50,537 bases of DNA from Sphaerobacter sp. (GTDB lineage: Bacteria > Chloroflexota > Chloroflexia > Thermomicrobiales > Thermomicrobiaceae): NCBI RefSeq assembly GCF_019683595.1, contig NZ_JADGHZ010000005.1:1-50537 (forward strand), given 5' to 3'. The notes under the pieces were generated by a model. The model worked only from the letters and a program-made list of their open reading frames with translations, did no database searches and had not been told where the DNA came from. Positions 43,704-50,537 of this stretch are shown one piece after another. The translations under genes were made by a program, and so were the position numbers. Positions within the stretch are counted from its first letter, which is position 1, and the number at the start of each line of letters is the position of its first letter.

Positions 43704-44684
43704 ATGGGTGCACACTCGCCAGCAATCCTCGCCCGCGGCGTCGTCAAGCGCTTCGGCACCACCCAGGCCCTCGCCGGACTGGATTTGACTGCTGAGCCGG
43801 GTACGATCCTCGGTGTCCTCGGTCCGAACGGCGCCGGAAAGACGACCGCCGTCCGCATCCTGACCACCCTGCTCCGGCCGGATGCCGGTCGCGTCGAAGT
43901 AGCCGGGTTCGACGTCGTGCGGCAGCCGGACCAGGTCCGGACCCGCATCGGCCTGGCCGGTCAGTACGCCACGGTCGATGAGCTCCTCTCCGGCCGGGAA
44001 AACCTGGTCATGGTCGGGCGGCTCTTCCACCTGCCGCGCGCGGAGGCGCGCCGGCGTGCCGACGCGCTGCTCGAACGATTCGGCCTGACCGATGTGGCCC
44101 ATCGCCCGGTCAAGACTTACTCCGGCGGCATGCGCCGGCGGCTGGACCTCGCGGCCAGTCTCGTCACCGAGCCGCAGGTCCTCTTCCTAGATGAGCCGAC
44201 CACCGGCCTCGATCCCCGCAGCCGGCTGACGCTGTGGGAGATCATCCGCGAGCAGGCGGCGCGCGGCGCCACCGTGCTGCTCACCACGCAGTACCTCGAT
44301 GAGGCCGATCAACTCGCCGACACCATCGTGGTGATCGACCACGGGCGAGTCATCGCCTCGGGGACCGCCGACGAGCTGAAGGATCAGGTCGGCGGCGACC
44401 GCCTCGACGTGACCGTTGCAGCGGAGAGCGATCTCGAGGACGCGGTCCGCGCGCTGGAGCGGCACGCCACCGGCCCCGCCCACGTCGACGTCGCGCAGCG
44501 ACAGGTGAGCGTCCCGATCCGCAACGTCCCCGGTCTGCTCGCCGCCGTGGTGCGCGACCTCGATGCTCGGAACGTGCGCCCGCTCGACTTCCGGCTGCGG
44601 CGGCCCACCCTGGATGACGTCTTCCTGGCCCTGACCAGTGCCCCGGCTGGGCCTGCCGGGGACGAGTGCGAGGAGGCCGCATGA
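43704..44684 (+). CDS. ABC transporter ATP-binding protein, DrrA/ABC-2 type
   Basis: The 326-residue ATPase has Walker A GPNGAGKTT (40-48), signature YSGGMRRRLDLA, Walker B VLFLDEPTTGLD and the switch His region LLTTQYLDEADQLAD. The extra C-terminal domain of about 95 residues (VTVAAESDLEDAVRALERH ...) with RPTLDDVFLALT is typical of the daunorubicin-resistance (DrrA) subfamily. It energises export by the permease encoded next. The stop overlaps the permease start. Expression is probably controlled by the divergent TetR. Confidence 0.94.
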   Translation: MGAHSPAILARGVVKRFGTTQALAGLDLTAEPGTILGVLGPNGAGKTTAVRILTTLLRPDAGRVEVAGFDVVRQPDQVRTRIGLAGQYATVDELLSGRENLVMVGRLFHLPRAEARRRADALLERFGLTDVAHRPVKTYSGGMRRRLDLAASLVTEPQVLFLDEPTTGLDPRSRLTLWEIIREQAARGATVLLTTQYLDEADQLADTIVVIDHGRVIASGTADELKDQVGGDRLDVTVAAESDLEDAVRALERHATGPAHVDVAQRQVSVPIRNVPGLLAAVVRDLDARNVRPLDFRLRRPTLDDVFLALTSAPAGPAGDECEEAA

Positions 44685-45493
44685 ACACCACAGCAATGAC
44701 CGTCGATCCCGTGCCGGTGTACCGCCGGTTGTACTGGGCACTCGCCGATGCCTGGGTCGTCACCCGGCGGCACCTGCTGCACATCCCGCAGCAGCACGAG
44801 CAGTGGATCTCCGCCACCGTGCAGCCCATCATCTTCGTGCTGCTCTTCCGCTACGTCTTCGGCGGTGCGATCGTGACGCCGGAAGCGTCCTACATCAACT
44901 TCCTGATGGCCGGGATCTTCGTCCAGTCGGTCGTCATGGAGGGGATGACGGGCGGCATCGGCCTCGCTCACGACCTGAAGCGCGGCATCATCGACCGCTT
45001 CCGCACTCTGCCGATGGCGCCCTCCGCGGTGCTGGCCGGTCCGATCGTCGCGGACACGCTGCGCAACCTGTTCATCATCGGGGTGATGCTCGCGCTGGGG
45101 CTCGCGGTCGGATTCCGGCCGGAGGCAAGCGCCCTCGCCTGGTGCGGGGCCATCGGCCTCCTCCTCGCCACCAGCTTCGCCGTCTCCTGGATCGGCTCCG
45201 TCGTGGCGCTGCTCGTTCGGGATCCGGAGGCGGTGCAGGTCATGGCGTTCGTGGTGATGATGCCGCTCGCCTTCGCCAGCAGCGCGTTCGTGCCGGTGGA
45301 GACGATGCCGAGCTGGCTCCAGCCGATCGTGCGTCATCAGCCGGTGACCGTCATCGTCGACGCGGTGCGGGGCCTCCTGCTCGCCCACACGACCGGCGCC
45401 GCGCCCTGGCAGGCCCTGGCCTGGTGCGCGGGCATCGTCGCCGTCTGTGCGCCGCTGTCGGTGGTGCTGTACCGCCGGCTGGCCCGCGAGTAG
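44681..45493 (+). CDS. ABC-2 type permease, DrrB-like
   Basis: The 270-residue integral membrane protein has about six helices and the ABC-2 pattern: VTRRHLLHIPQQHEQWISATVQPIIFVLLF, then YINFLMAGIFVQSVVMEGM, LAHDLKRGIIDRFRTLPMA (coupling helix) and FVPVETMPSWLQPIVRHQPVT. It forms the export path for an amphipathic substrate such as a drug or lipid. The ATG at 44681 overlaps the ATPase stop (ATGA) and has GAGGAGG. Confidence 0.92.
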   Translation: MNTTAMTVDPVPVYRRLYWALADAWVVTRRHLLHIPQQHEQWISATVQPIIFVLLFRYVFGGAIVTPEASYINFLMAGIFVQSVVMEGMTGGIGLAHDLKRGIIDRFRTLPMAPSAVLAGPIVADTLRNLFIIGVMLALGLAVGFRPEASALAWCGAIGLLLATSFAVSWIGSVVALLVRDPEAVQVMAFVVMMPLAFASSAFVPVETMPSWLQPIVRHQPVTVIVDAVRGLLLAHTTGAAPWQALAWCAGIVAVCAPLSVVLYRRLARE

Positions 45494-45559: not shown

Positions 45560-46141
45560 TCAGGAGCGGGCAAGCGACTGCAACGCCGCGTAGACGCGCT
45601 CTTCGACCGTCTGTCCCTCGCGGCGTTCGACGCGAGCCAGGGCGTCGCGAGCCTCGGGCGCGGTATAGCCGAGTGCCATGAGCGCCTCCATCGCCTCAGC
45701 GTCGGCCGCCGCGAGGGCCTGCCCTTGCATGCCGGCCGGTTCGGGCAGCTTGCCGCGAAGCTCCAGGATGATCCGGCTGGCGGTCTTCCTACCGATGCCC
45801 GGCACCCGGCTGAGGGAGGCGATGTCCTCCGACTCGATGACCCGGTGCACCTCCTCCGGCCGGGCACTCGAGAGGATGTTCAGCGCCACCCGTGGCCCGA
45901 CGCCGGTCACGCTCATGAGCAACTCGAAGAGCTGCAACTCTTCCGGCGTGCTGAAGCCGTAGAGCGTGATGTCGTCCTCGCGCACGCGGAGGTGCGTGTA
46001 GAGCTCGGCGTGGTCGCCAACCTCACCGAGGTCGTCGACGGTCGTCTGCGACGTGAGCACGCGGATGATGAGCCCATGGAGGTCGATGAGCACGATCCCC
46101 GGGTACTTGGCGTGGATCGGACCCCGAACGCCACTGATCAT
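45560..46141 (-). CDS. ruvA: Holliday junction branch migration protein RuvA
   Basis: The 193-residue protein has the three RuvA domains: an OB fold (1-62, MISGVRGPIHAKYPGIVLID), a tandem helix-hairpin-helix region (about 66-135, LLMSVTGVGPRVALNILS and LSRVPGIGRKTASRIILEL) and a C-terminal RuvB-binding domain (about 148-193). The acidic pin and usual length are consistent with function. Its ATG overlaps the amidohydrolase stop (ATGA), an unusual partner. ruvB and ruvC are not in the window. Confidence 0.96.
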   Translation of the reverse strand: MISGVRGPIHAKYPGIVLIDLHGLIIRVLTSQTTVDDLGEVGDHAELYTHLRVREDDITLYGFSTPEELQLFELLMSVTGVGPRVALNILSSARPEEVHRVIESEDIASLSRVPGIGRKTASRIILELRGKLPEPAGMQGQALAAADAEAMEALMALGYTAPEARDALARVERREGQTVEERVYAALQSLARS

Positions 46142-46995
46142 TGGGCATCCCCGCCGGGGAGGTTGTAGACACGGATCGCGTTGCCGCCGAGCACGGGGCC
46201 CACCTCCTCCTCGCGCAGGTTCGCATCGCGCACCCGCCGCAGGAAGCGATCCTGCCGCAGCACCGGATAGTCCGACGCCATCAGCACGCGCTCAGGTCCG
46301 ACGATGTCCAGCACCGTCCGGAAGACGTCGAAGCGGTACAGGTACGTCGACGCGGCCGAGTCGTACGCCACGTTGCGCGCCAGCGACGCGACCTCCGGCA
46401 TCAACTCATAGAAGGGCAGTCCGCCACCCCAGTGCGCCGCGACCACCCGGAGATCGGGATAGGCCGCCAGGAAGTGGACGAGCTTCTCGGGCGTCGCGGT
46501 GCCCTTGCCGGGGTAGATATGCCCCACCGGCTCGCTGACGTGGAACATCACCGGACGGTCGTGCTGCACACAGACGTCGACCAGCGCGGCCAGCGGTTCC
46601 GGCTCGCGGAAGTCAAACCCCTGCGCGTCGGCATTCAACTCCCCGATCCCGACGGCGCCGAGGGCGAAGCAGCGGGCGGCCTCCTCGGCGGCGTTGGGCG
46701 CGGTCGGCACCACCGTCGCCAGCCAGCTCAACCGGTCGGGGTACGTCGCGGCGGCCGCCGCCATGTAGTCGTTGTGCATCCGGCAGAGGGCCGGGTCGCG
46801 CCACGGGAACCCGGCGATGATGGAACGGTCGATCCCCGCGGCGTCCATGCTGGCGATCAGGTCCTCGGCAGTCACCAGCGCCGCGCGCGGGTTTGAATAG
46901 AGGTGCTCAAACCAGGGATCACGCGCTACGTATGCCGCACGGTCCCGGCAGATCTCCGGGGAAAAGACGTGCGTGTGCGCGTCGACGACCACCAC
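46138..46995 (-). CDS. Amidohydrolase family (amidohydrolase-2/ACMSD-like) metal hydrolase
   Basis: This roughly 285-residue TIM-barrel protein begins VVVVDAHTHVFSPEI (HxH metal ligands). Further motifs are MFHVSEPVGH, VAAHWGGGLPFYELMP and MASDYPVLRQ (conserved Asp). Such proteins hydrolyse or decarboxylate small cyclic acids; the substrate is unknown. The start is uncertain: I use GTG at 46995, which has GGGAG 9 nt upstream; ATG 47022 would add nine residues but lacks a well-spaced site. It lies between a PP2C phosphatase gene (upstream) and ruvA (overlapping). Confidence 0.85.
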   Translation of the reverse strand: MVVVDAHTHVFSPEICRDRAAYVARDPWFEHLYSNPRAALVTAEDLIASMDAAGIDRSIIAGFPWRDPALCRMHNDYMAAAAATYPDRLSWLATVVPTAPNAAEEAARCFALGAVGIGELNADAQGFDFREPEPLAALVDVCVQHDRPVMFHVSEPVGHIYPGKGTATPEKLVHFLAAYPDLRVVAAHWGGGLPFYELMPEVASLARNVAYDSAASTYLYRFDVFRTVLDIVGPERVLMASDYPVLRQDRFLRRVRDANLREEEVGPVLGGNAIRVYNLPGGDAQ

Positions 46996-47045
46996 CGACG
47001 GCCACTCCCATGCCCGCGGCATCCGTGCGGGCGGGGCCGGCGCTC

Positions 47046-47942
47046 CTAGGCCCCGCCACCCATGAACAGGATGACCGCGACGATCGCGATGAAGACGAGG
47101 AGGCCGATCAGCACCAGCACCGGGACCAGCCACGCAGCGCGCCCGGCGGCCTCCGCCTCCACCGGCTGCGGCTCCAGCGTCGCACCGGCCGGCATCATCC
47201 AGGCGACCACCGCGCTGACGTTGTCGTTGGACGAACGCGCCAGTGCGGTCTGGACGAGCTCCCGCGCGGCCTGCTCGGGCGGTGAGCTGAGCACAATGCG
47301 CGCGAGATCCTCCTCCTCGACGTAGTCATGGACACCGTCGGTCGTCAGGACCAACCGGTCGTCTGCCAGCAAGCGGATCTCGAAGATATCGACATCGACG
47401 CGCGGCCGGTGTCCAAGCGCGCGGGTAATGATGTTGCGGTGCTGGCTTTCGCGCGCCTCCTGCTCGGTCATCGCGCCGGCTGCGACCTGCTCCGCCACCA
47501 GGGAGTGGTCCCGCGTGACCTGCGTCGCCCGGTTCGCCCGGATTAGGTAGGCACGGCTGTCGCCGACATTGCCGATCGTCAGGTCATTCCCCCGGATGAC
47601 CGCGGCGACCAGCGTCGTGCCCATCATGTTCTCGTCGCCGTTGGCCGAGCCGTTTTGATAGATCAGCTCGTTGGCGTGGCGGAAGGCCTGCTTCAGGCGC
47701 TGCGGGACCTCAGTCGGGCCGATCTCCGACCCGTAGTAGTCCTCGCGCAGCGTATCGACCGCGATCTGTGCCGCGACTTCGCCCCGCTGGTAGCCGCCCA
47801 TGCCGTCGGCGACGGCCAGGAGCACCCCGTGGCTCTGGGCCAACTCCCCTTCCGGATCGGCGACGAAGACGCTGTCCTCGTTTTCCTCCCGGACGGTCCC
47901 GGTGTCGGTCGCAGCACCGACCGCCACCCGCATTTCATCCAC
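47046..47942 (-). CDS. PP2C-family serine/threonine phosphatase with C-terminal membrane anchor
   Basis: The 298-residue protein has the bacterial PP2C (Stp/PstP) motifs in order: REENEDSVFVADP, LLAVADGMGGYQRGEVAAQ, GTTLVAAVI, NVGDSRAYLIR, QVTRDHSLV, ITRALGH, TTDGVHDYV and SNDNVSAVV, so the metal-binding Asp residues are intact. A single transmembrane helix (about 271-293) ends the protein, placing the catalytic domain in the cytoplasm by the positive-inside pattern. A partner Ser/Thr kinase is not in the window. The GTG at 47942 is used; an ATG three codons later is possible. Confidence 0.92.
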   Translation of the reverse strand: MDEMRVAVGAATDTGTVREENEDSVFVADPEGELAQSHGVLLAVADGMGGYQRGEVAAQIAVDTLREDYYGSEIGPTEVPQRLKQAFRHANELIYQNGSANGDENMMGTTLVAAVIRGNDLTIGNVGDSRAYLIRANRATQVTRDHSLVAEQVAAGAMTEQEARESQHRNIITRALGHRPRVDVDIFEIRLLADDRLVLTTDGVHDYVEEEDLARIVLSSPPEQAARELVQTALARSSNDNVSAVVAWMMPAGATLEPQPVEAEAAGRAAWLVPVLVLIGLLVFIAIVAVILFMGGGA

Positions 47943-48125: not shown

Positions 48126-48845
48126 ATGCGATGGGTCCCACTGCTACGACTCATGCCGGTACTCCTCCTCATGGCGGGGCTGGTGCTCGCCTGCGGTGGG
48201 TCCGACGAGGAACCAACCTCGACACCCTCGCCCCAGAGCCTAATCGACGCCGCTGCGGCCCGGTTCAACGAGCTCGATTCGGCCCACTACACGTTGACGA
48301 TCGACGGGGATGTCTACCTCGATTCGCAGGGGATGCTCGCTCTCCGCGGCGCTGAGGGCGACCTCCAGCGCCCCGACCGCGCCACCGCCAAGGCCGACAT
48401 CGGCTTCGCCGGCACGACGCTCTCGGTGAACGTGGTCGCCCTGGGCCAGGAGCAATACATGACCAATTTCCTGACCGGCCGGTGGGAGCGCGCCCCAGAG
48501 GATCTGGACTACAACCCGGCCGTGGTGTTCGACCCCGAGCGCGGCATCCCGGGCGTGCTCCGTGACACGCGCGACGTGACGCTGGTCGGTGAGGAAAACC
48601 TCGACGGCGCGTCGGCCTACCACCTGCGGGGCGTCGTCCCGCAAGCCGCGGTCGCGCCGATGACCGGCAACGCCTTCCAGGGCGACCCGATCGACTTCGA
48701 CCTGTGGATCGACCGCGAGACATCCGACATTCGCAAGGTTGTGCTCCACGACACGGCCGCCGCGCAGGGAGCGACACCGGCGACATGGACCCTCGTCCTG
48801 AGCAAGCACAACGAGCCGGTCACCATCGAGAAGCCGGCGACCTAG
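48126..48845 (+). CDS. LppX_LprAFG family lipoprotein (LprG-like)
   Basis: The 239-residue protein has a lipoprotein signal peptide (LLRLMPVLLLMAGLVLAC, lipidated C23) and then a Ser/Thr/Pro linker. The folded domain has the LppX/LprG pattern: SAHYTLTIDG, GAEGDLQRPDRATAKADIGF, YMTNFLTGRWERAP, DPERGIPGVLRDTRD, AYHLRGVV and, at the end, LVLSKHNEPVTIEKP. Members hold lipids in a large cavity at the outer face of the membrane. The MFS gene that follows matches the lprG-Rv1410c (P55) pairing of mycobacteria. The ATG at 48126 has only a weak GGAG. Confidence 0.9.
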   Translation: MRWVPLLRLMPVLLLMAGLVLACGGSDEEPTSTPSPQSLIDAAAARFNELDSAHYTLTIDGDVYLDSQGMLALRGAEGDLQRPDRATAKADIGFAGTTLSVNVVALGQEQYMTNFLTGRWERAPEDLDYNPAVVFDPERGIPGVLRDTRDVTLVGEENLDGASAYHLRGVVPQAAVAPMTGNAFQGDPIDFDLWIDRETSDIRKVVLHDTAAAQGATPATWTLVLSKHNEPVTIEKPAT

Positions 48846-50386
48846 CACCGGCAGCGGTCCCCGGCGCGCACAGCCCGGGGCGACTGCTCGTGCCGGTCCT
48901 GATCATCGTCGTCGTCGCTGCCCTGGACCTGACGGTCATCGCCCCGATCCTCCCCGCCGTCCTGGTCGACCTGCGCGTCAACACCGCGGAGGCCGACCGC
49001 TACGTGTGGATCGTCAGCGGCTACCTCCTGGCCTATACGCTCACGATTCCCCTGATGGGTCGGCTCTCTGATATCGTCGGCCGGCGAGCGACCTTCCTCG
49101 CAGCACTGGGCATCTTCCTTGCCGGCTCGGCGGCCTGCGCGGCCGCGCACACACTCCCAGCCATCATCGCCGCGCGAGTCGTCCAGGGCTTCGGCGGTGG
49201 CGCCATGGTGCCGGTCGCGATGGCGGTGGTCGGCGACCTGCTGCCTCCGGCACGGCGAGCGGGCGCACTCGGCGTCGTCGCCGCGGCCGATACGCTCGGC
49301 TGGGTGCTTGGGCCGCTCTGGGGCGCGGCCATCGAACAGCTCACCGGCGACTGGCGCTGGATCTTCCTCCTCAACCTGCCGATCGGCCTCACGGCCGGCG
49401 CGGTCCTGGTGGTGCGCTGGCGCGACCTGCCACTGGGAGGGCGCCAACACATGGCCCTCGACCTCCCCGGCGCGCTGCTCCTGGCAGTCGGCCTTCTGGG
49501 GTTGAGCCTGGGAGTGTCGGTCGGTGCCGAGCCGATGCCGGGAGGCGGCAGCCGCGCACTCGGGGCAGCGCCGAACCCCCTGGCCGCCTACCGCTTGCCG
49601 CTGGTCGTCGTCGGCATCGTCGCGCTGGCGCTGCTGGTCGTGGTCGAGCGGCGAGCCCGGCACCCGCTCATTCCCCTCGGCATCTTCCGTGAGCGCCTCT
49701 TCGCCGCCGCGAACGGGACGAACTTCCTCATCGGCGCGGCACTGATGGTGGCGATGGTGAACGTCCCGCTGCTGACCGCGCTCCTGGTCGAAGAGGACCG
49801 CGTCAGCCTCGTCAGTGCCGAGCTGCTGGGCGCCTTTTCGCTGGCGATGGGAATCGGTGCCCTGGCAGGCGGGCGCGTCGCGGAGCGCTTTGGCTACGTC
49901 GGGGTGACTCTGGCCGGCCTGCTCGTCGCCGCGGCCGGGTTCTGGCGCATGAGCGGGTGGGGCAACACGCTGGAGATGTCGCGCATGGGCCTCGACCTCG
50001 CGGTCACCGGGGTCGGTGTGGGCCTGGTCATCGCGCCCATCGCCGCGGCGGCCATCAACGCCGCGCGCCGTTCCGACCTCGGCATCGCCTCGGGACTCGT
50101 GATCGTCATGCGCCTGCTCGGCATGACCCTCGGCATCTCCGCGCTGACCGCCTGGGGCGTTGCCCGCTTGAACGAGGCGCTGACCAGCTTACCACCCGTC
50201 ATCCAGCAACCGGGCGAATCGCTGGCCGACTACCTGGCGCGCCAGCAGCAAGTGGCGGTGGAGCAGGCCATCCCGGCGACCATCGAGGTCATCCGCGACA
50301 CGTTCGGCGCCGCCGCCCTCATCTGCCTGCTGGCCATCCTCCCCGCGCTCTTCCTCTCCCAGCGCCCGCGCCGGGAGCGAGAGTGA
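48785..50386 (+). CDS. MFS transporter, 14-TM DHA2/P55-like
   Basis: The roughly 533-residue transporter has about 14 helices. Motif A is PLMGRLSDIVGRRATF after TM2; VQGFGGGAMVPVAMAVVGDL and LGWVLGPLWGAAIEQ follow, as in EmrB/QacA-type drug:H+ antiporters. A loop of about 50 residues before the last helix (NEALTSLPPVIQQPGESLAD...) is unusually long and recalls the periplasmic extension of mycobacterial Rv1410. The start is uncertain: ATG 48785 overlaps the lipoprotein gene by 61 bp; GTG 48890 begins just before TM1 and would also give a complete transporter. It probably works with the LprG-like lipoprotein in lipid or drug export. Confidence 0.88.
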   Translation: MDPRPEQAQRAGHHREAGDLAPAAVPGAHSPGRLLVPVLIIVVVAALDLTVIAPILPAVLVDLRVNTAEADRYVWIVSGYLLAYTLTIPLMGRLSDIVGRRATFLAALGIFLAGSAACAAAHTLPAIIAARVVQGFGGGAMVPVAMAVVGDLLPPARRAGALGVVAAADTLGWVLGPLWGAAIEQLTGDWRWIFLLNLPIGLTAGAVLVVRWRDLPLGGRQHMALDLPGALLLAVGLLGLSLGVSVGAEPMPGGGSRALGAAPNPLAAYRLPLVVVGIVALALLVVVERRARHPLIPLGIFRERLFAAANGTNFLIGAALMVAMVNVPLLTALLVEEDRVSLVSAELLGAFSLAMGIGALAGGRVAERFGYVGVTLAGLLVAAAGFWRMSGWGNTLEMSRMGLDLAVTGVGVGLVIAPIAAAAINAARRSDLGIASGLVIVMRLLGMTLGISALTAWGVARLNEALTSLPPVIQQPGESLADYLARQQQVAVEQAIPATIEVIRDTFGAAALICLLAILPALFLSQRPRRERE

Positions 50387-50394
50387 TACGCCTT

Positions 50395-50518
50395 GCGTCA
50401 TGCGTCATACGTCCCCCTCACCCCCGGCCCCTCTCCCACCAGGGGAGAGGGGAGTAGGACGGACCACGGAACACGCAATACACAATACCCATCCCGCATG
50501 ACGGTTGACGCATGACGC
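50395..50518. repeat. Intergenic inverted repeat with inner terminator
   Basis: A perfect 13-bp inverted repeat, GCGTCATGCGTCA (50395-50407) and TGACGCATGACGC (50506-50518), encloses a CCCCTCTCCC/GGGGAGAGGGG hairpin at 50428-50452. The inner hairpin belongs to the same family as that at 20053-20158 and may terminate the MFS transcript. The rest of the window (to 50537) holds no gene. Confidence 0.6.
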
Positions 50519-50537
50519 ATCACGCCTCCCCCAACGC

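Follow-up and report, generated by a model that had tools for sequence, protein, structure and literature searches.

The closest described counterpart of the locus reported here is the LprG-Rv1410c (P27-P55) operon, in which a lipoprotein gene of the LppX_LprAFG family (PF07161) is followed by the gene of a major facilitator superfamily (MFS) transporter, and which has been described as conserved among mycobacteria (PMC10576003, PMC10745849). The mycobacterial transporter needs an ion lock between Glu157 and Arg426 for its function, and a beta-hairpin between TM9 and TM10 is dispensable, its deletion having been without effect (PMC10576003). Work on the pair has treated it as a system of mycobacterial virulence and of the cell envelope, and its role has been explained by the triacylglycerol-sealed mycomembrane. 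Three further lipoproteins, LppX, LprF and LprA, share the PF07161 family and fold with the lipoprotein analysed in this study but match it more weakly in sequence than LprG does, and their genes are not known to lie beside such an MFS gene. LppX works with MmpL7 (PMC4709180). Within the open-access literature, no report linking LprG or LppX with the Chloroflexi was found, PF07161 (DUF1396) being named there solely for mycobacteria and their relatives, and an LprG-MFS pair outside mycobacteria is apparently unpublished in that literature.

This study analysed a window of 50,537 nucleotides from a Sphaerobacter draft genome (3.89 Mb), in which the initial annotation had recognized an LprG-P55-type pair and a Thermomicrobia-like host (Table 1). 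The host was named correctly, and the pair is borne out by sequence, predicted fold, reciprocal best matches, trees and conserved adjacency. The upstream gene matches the PF07161 profile at 106.7 bits (E 1.8e-30), well above the curated cut-off of 24, and is the sole match to this profile in the genome. When its product was searched against the sequences of the PDB, LprG (3mh9) ranked first (E 7.3e-12), followed by LprF (3.1e-6) and LppX (0.044), confirming the family that had been assigned to it. A signal peptide and lipobox are present, and the lipobox cysteine lines up with the cysteine of 15 mycobacterial LprG proteins. The structure model (pLDDT 82.9) is closest to LprG among solved structures (3mha; Z 24.0, 2.5 A over 190 residues), with LprF at Z 23.3, LppX at Z 17.9 and a maximum of 10.8 for structures outside PF07161; the lipoprotein is therefore predicted to adopt the LprG/LppX fold. 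This model and that of the transporter were both built without templates from input alignments of mycobacterial relatives, and both are consequently pulled towards the known LprG and Rv1410 folds.

Table 1. Features of the lipoprotein-transporter locus, in window positions.
Feature	Position	Strand	Basis or remark
RuvA, amidohydrolase and PP2C phosphatase block adjoining the pair	45560-47942	-	occurs likewise in genomes lacking the pair
LppX_LprAFG-family lipoprotein, 239 aa, putative LprG-type lipid carrier	48126..48845	+	ORF from ATG to stop; PF07161 profile
Lipobox cysteine Cys23, presumed lipid anchor	48192..48194	+	...GLVLAC read by eye from sequence
14-helix DHA2-type MFS transporter, LprG-partner clade	48782..50386 (alternative start GTG 48889)	+	sequence, tree, model
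Possible overlap (64 bp) of lipoprotein and MFS genes, if the start is ATG 48782	48782..48845	+	ORF limits
Asp170-Thr171 in TM5, replacing Gln156-Glu157 of MHAS2168; shifted ion-lock carboxylate	49289..49294	+	alignment columns
Arg444 in TM11, equivalent to ion-lock Arg426 of MHAS2168	50111..50113	+	alignment columns
TM11 and TM12, elongated in the prediction (36 and 37 residues); would protrude from the membrane	50078..50332	+	model, pLDDT ~70-90

As had been annotated, the transporter gene follows directly. It lies on the same strand, with a 64-bp overlap or a 43-bp gap according to which of the two candidate start codons is used. The earlier start leaves room ahead of helix 1, like the proteins of relatives, and the reading frame is open to the end given in Table 1; mycobacterial lprG-MFS gene pairs are likewise touching or almost touching. 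The product matches the Pfam profile MFS_1 at E 5.2e-42, and its best match in the PDB, by both sequence and structure, is MHAS2168 (8pnl), the Rv1410 homologue of M. hassiacum (205 bits, E 1.7e-59; second EfpA, 99.7 bits). Fourteen long helices in the model (pLDDT 72.6) agree with the fourteen transmembrane segments first counted, and the model fits 8pnl best (Z 41.6, 34% identity; second-best Z 36.7). The nearest relative genome carries a copy 94% identical to the window MFS. Of the extended loop before the last helix that had also been pointed out, the stretch itself is present, with TM11 and TM12 elongated in a model of modest confidence built on a mycobacterial input alignment, but its length is unremarkable: the distance from the Arg426 equivalent to TM12 is 64 in 32 of 32 Thermomicrobiales rows and 57-65 in five mycobacterial rows, against 63-93 in other DHA2 transporters, and loop length was therefore ruled out as a hallmark. 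The TM9-TM10 beta-hairpin of MHAS2168 is absent from the window MFS model, which has no strand and eight residues between these helices.

Reciprocal searches and two trees place the transporter with Rv1410. With the window MFS as query, the lprG-adjacent gene ranks first in all five mycobacterial genomes searched (199-215 bits; next at most 158), and with a mycobacterial MFS as query the window gene ranks first in its own genome (190 bits; next 119). A FastTree phylogeny of 114 rows divides 100 paired MFS from 14 other DHA2 transporters (EmrB, EfpA and 12 encoded in the same Chloroflexota genomes) by one branch with a support of 100. In an LG+C20 tree of 64 rows, 38 paired MFS and an unpaired Herpetosiphon-like MFS are separated, at a support of 99, from 25 other DHA2 transporters (EmrB, EfpA and 23 more, mycobacterial ones included). 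On these phylogenies, the window MFS and Rv1410 belong to one clade of common ancestry that excludes the other DHA2 transporters. EmrB, EfpA and QacA share the 14-helix MFS fold with the window MFS; of these, EmrB and EfpA were included in the trees, where they stand apart from it, and both lack a carboxylate at position 156 or 157 (MHAS2168 numbering). Inside the LprG-partner clade, Chloroflexota and Actinomycetota sequences are interleaved, and the MFS of three Chloroflexota families (f13, f23 and f26) are closer to Rv1410 than to the window MFS. A single scan of viral contigs with the window MFS found no relative.

Two departures from the usual arrangement were seen within this clade. In a Herpetosiphon-like genome (G162), the MFS (L259:3980-5542) falls inside the clade and the PF07161 gene lies at a distant position (G162:C1:3401875-3402390). 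In g2 and g3, two genera from the family that the window belongs to (L023, L024, L028, L031, L034), a divergent LprG-partner MFS is found at the PP2C-flanked place, a position that was checked in L266-L268. These MFS cluster elsewhere in the clade, with other Chloroflexota and Actinomycetota, and the two aligned rows have Asp-Asp at 156-157 and Gln in place of Arg426; an in-place replacement is possible.

The residues of the ion lock distinguish the window MFS both from other DHA2 transporters and from Rv1410 itself. In the alignment, the equivalent of Arg426 is present, and Glu157 is missing, with Thr at 157 and Asp at 156; MHAS2168, by contrast, has its own ion-lock carboxylate at 157. The arginine also occurs in 12 of the 14 other DHA2 rows, and three partial actinobacterial rows stop short of position 426. 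The equivalents of Asp35, Arg118, Gln121 and Asn184 are conserved in the window MFS and equally in other DHA2 transporters, and are thus not specific to the clade. A carboxylate at 156 or 157 was found in 100 of 100 paired MFS versus 0 of 14 other DHA2 rows, and in a second set in 38 of 38 versus 0 of 25; the acid is at 157 in 58 of the 100 paired rows and at 156 alone in the other 42. Main-type Thermomicrobiales MFS (n=32) have Asp at 156 in 28 cases and Glu in four, always followed by Thr at 157, Asp-Thr occupies these positions in 6/6 Chloroflexia rows, and Glu157 is retained in most of the remaining Chloroflexota and Actinomycetota paired rows. From this pattern, we infer that Asp170 assumes the role of Glu157; the ion lock of the window MFS would then rely on a substitute one residue away, which counts against a lipid extraction unit of the Rv1410 type. 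Because Glu157 itself is replaced, we place the window MFS on a variant branch within the LprG-partner clade and do not equate it with Rv1410.

Set against the LprG-Rv1410c operon as a whole, the window locus has the same gene order, tight spacing, a PF07161 lipoprotein with a predicted LprG fold, and an MFS of the same clade with the Arg426 and Asp35 equivalents. It may also share long TM11-TM12 helices, predicted in the model of modest confidence. It differs in the one-residue shift of the ion-lock acid, in an MFS model lacking the TM9-TM10 hairpin, and in a host that has no known mycomembrane and no detected WS/DGAT.

The pairing was found to be conserved over a wide range of genomes. Among 61 relatives, PF07161 was detected in 52, at 70 places, of which 61 were read, the window included (the nine omitted being mostly weaker or fragmentary matches). 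An MFS gene is next downstream in 45 of these 61 loci, with none in 14 and a contig end in two, so that the pair is present in 45 of the 48 genomes covered. An even draw across the phylum found PF07161 in 122/301 genomes, and outside the window's order 89 places were read (nine with E <1e-10 and all weaker matches omitted): 72 are paired with a downstream MFS, 14 are unpaired and three lie at contig ends, giving 71 of 87 genomes with the pair. In the combined Chloroflexota surveys, 28 of 150 PF07161 loci have no MFS downstream; the pair is not retained in all lineages, which was weighed against the lipid-extraction reading given below. Across the 61 relatives, PF07161 is present in 41 of the 42 genomes with an MFS above 200 bits, and such an MFS is missing in eight of the nine genomes without PF07161. 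Outside the phylum, PF07161 was found in 31 of 198 Actinomycetota genomes; of 30 places that were read, all 17 with the strongest matches (E up to 4.6e-8) are paired and none of the 13 weaker ones is. The pair thus has a wide distribution in Chloroflexota and, outside the mycobacteria, in Actinomycetota; the initial annotation was right in placing it outside mycobacteria, although it is not peculiar to Thermomicrobia. Clustering of the MFS with EmrB pumps and a pairing that relatives do not keep, the two outcomes named at the outset as telling against an LprG-P55-type pair, are contradicted by the two trees and by the conserved adjacency, respectively.

The lipoproteins themselves vary across the surveyed loci. 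A second PF07161 type without an MFS neighbour occurs in genus g4 (L026, L030, L036) and in family f3 (L038, L050, L054, L057, L062, L065, L069, L072); the proteins of family f3 seem, from their sequences, to lack a lipobox and to be secreted. In addition, inspection by eye found a carrier without a lipobox cysteine in eight of the order's 45 paired loci (L043, L047, L049, L052, L053, L064, L071, L076), which suggests that these carriers are soluble or otherwise anchored.

We assign a probability of about 0.75 to the reading that the two genes form a lipid extraction unit of the LprG-Rv1410 type, with the cargo left unspecified. This reading builds on the gene order, the families, the shared descent of the MFS and Rv1410, the conservation of the pair, the predicted folds and the carboxylate near the ion-lock site, all established here, whereas the lipid cargo, the proton coupling, the direction and the hand-over are modelled on the mycobacterial work. 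By this analogy, the proton-driven MFS would pull a hydrophobic multi-acyl lipid from the cytoplasmic membrane into its own cavity, the Asp170-Arg444 ion lock would help to raise it, and the elongated TM11-TM12 helices would guide the lipid to the lipoprotein, an LprG-fold protein anchored in the membrane, which would convey it to the outer face or the wall. Against lipid extraction, we know of no mycomembrane in Sphaerobacter. Its Gram-positive staining (PMC3035262) was weighed on the same side.

The transporter might instead be an ordinary DHA2 multidrug pump, in which case the lipoprotein would be either unrelated to its neighbour or an aid to drug efflux. The EmrB-type profile TIGR00711 is its top NCBIfam match, yet the score of 180.7 bits remains below the cut-off of 230.2, and P55 was originally described as a drug pump (PMC10576003); the separation of the clade from EmrB, EfpA and 23 other DHA2 transporters in the LG+C20 tree, the adjacency to PF07161 conserved in two phyla and the absence of the 156/157 carboxylate motif from other DHA2 transporters nevertheless make this quite improbable. 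Similarly low is the likelihood that the pair moves triacylglycerol as in mycobacteria. LprG carries this lipid (PMC4709180) and the carrier fold is the same in the model, but the acyltransferase family WS/DGAT (PF03007) was not found in the window genome, has one weak match among the 61 relatives and occurs in 3/27 Chloroflexota genomes (26 with the pair, and G162 without), as against 6/6 mycobacterial-type genomes with 9-14 matches each. Because WS/DGAT is essentially absent from the relatives, triacylglycerol made by this route is an unlikely cargo, another DGAT being possible. That the pair puts the other ligands known for LprG, acylated phosphoinositol or mannosylated glycolipids, on the surface is somewhat less improbable though still unlikely: LprG binds Ac1PIM2 and lipoglycans (PMC4709180, PMC10576003; also the title of PDB entry 3mha), and an inositol-phosphate synthase (PF01658) is present in the window genome. 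Among the 61 relatives, however, 16 have both PF01658 and the MFS, 26 have the MFS without PF01658 and 16 the reverse, so that no co-occurrence is seen.

The remaining alternative, put forward in the initial annotation, is that the exported cargo consists of the long-chain 1,2-diol lipids known from Thermomicrobia. Relatives of Sphaerobacter make diols. The membrane of T. roseum has been described as all diol (PMC2615216). However, in genus g6, which is collinear with a stretch of the T. roseum megaplasmid at ~70-75% DNA identity and from this collinearity appears to be the genus most like Thermomicrobium, neither PF07161 nor an MFS above 200 bits was found in any of seven genomes (two of them less than 65% complete). 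The PP2C-amidohydrolase-RuvA block stays in place without the pair in 4/4 g6 genomes read, and a search of the T. roseum megaplasmid alone gave no match to the pair. The pair is also common in many other Chloroflexota lineages, for which we know of no diol lipids. Because this Thermomicrobium-like genus lacks the pair, diol cargo was rejected as the general role, and it is very improbable for the window locus. The cargo is therefore probably neither triacylglycerol made by WS/DGAT nor specifically a long-chain diol lipid.

The distribution of the LprG-Rv1410-type unit bears on its origin. Since the pair occurs, slightly altered, in this thermophilic member of the Chloroflexota and in many of its relatives, the unit was probably not originally part of the mycobacterial outer membrane. 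A tentative extension, which we put at somewhat below even odds, is that LprG and its MFS constitute an ancient lipid-export module shared by Chloroflexota and Actinomycetota, older than both the mycomembrane and the triacylglycerol cargo. In the window's sub-branch, the acid of the ion lock would have moved over by one residue, from Glu157 to Asp/Glu156-Thr157, and the exported lipid would be a different multi-acyl one, in cells without a mycomembrane. The spread of the pair in Chloroflexota, where most of the genomes searched have no WS/DGAT, makes its ancestral cargo and purpose directly testable, and the coupling mechanism that has been proposed can be tested on the natural shift of the ion-lock acid.

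The surroundings of the pair are partly conserved as well. A divergent PP2C gene adjoins the pair in most paired loci of the window's order (a cluster of 30 loci), and the other members of its block, on the opposite strand, recur in 27 and 28 loci. Further clusters lie upstream on the same strand, ~4 kb away (24 loci), and downstream, mostly on the opposite strand (22 loci), the representative of the latter resembling a ribulose-phosphate epimerase by eye; comparison of the neighbour clusters of the paired loci found no conserved third gene of the unit. In the window, a DrrA-type ABC ATPase gene followed directly by an ABC-2 permease gene occupies positions 43704-45493 on the + strand. On the 3' side of the MFS gene, a short element (50383-50525) consists of inverted repeats (20 nt, 90%) around a C/G-rich hairpin (50428-50452) and is present in a single copy in the window.
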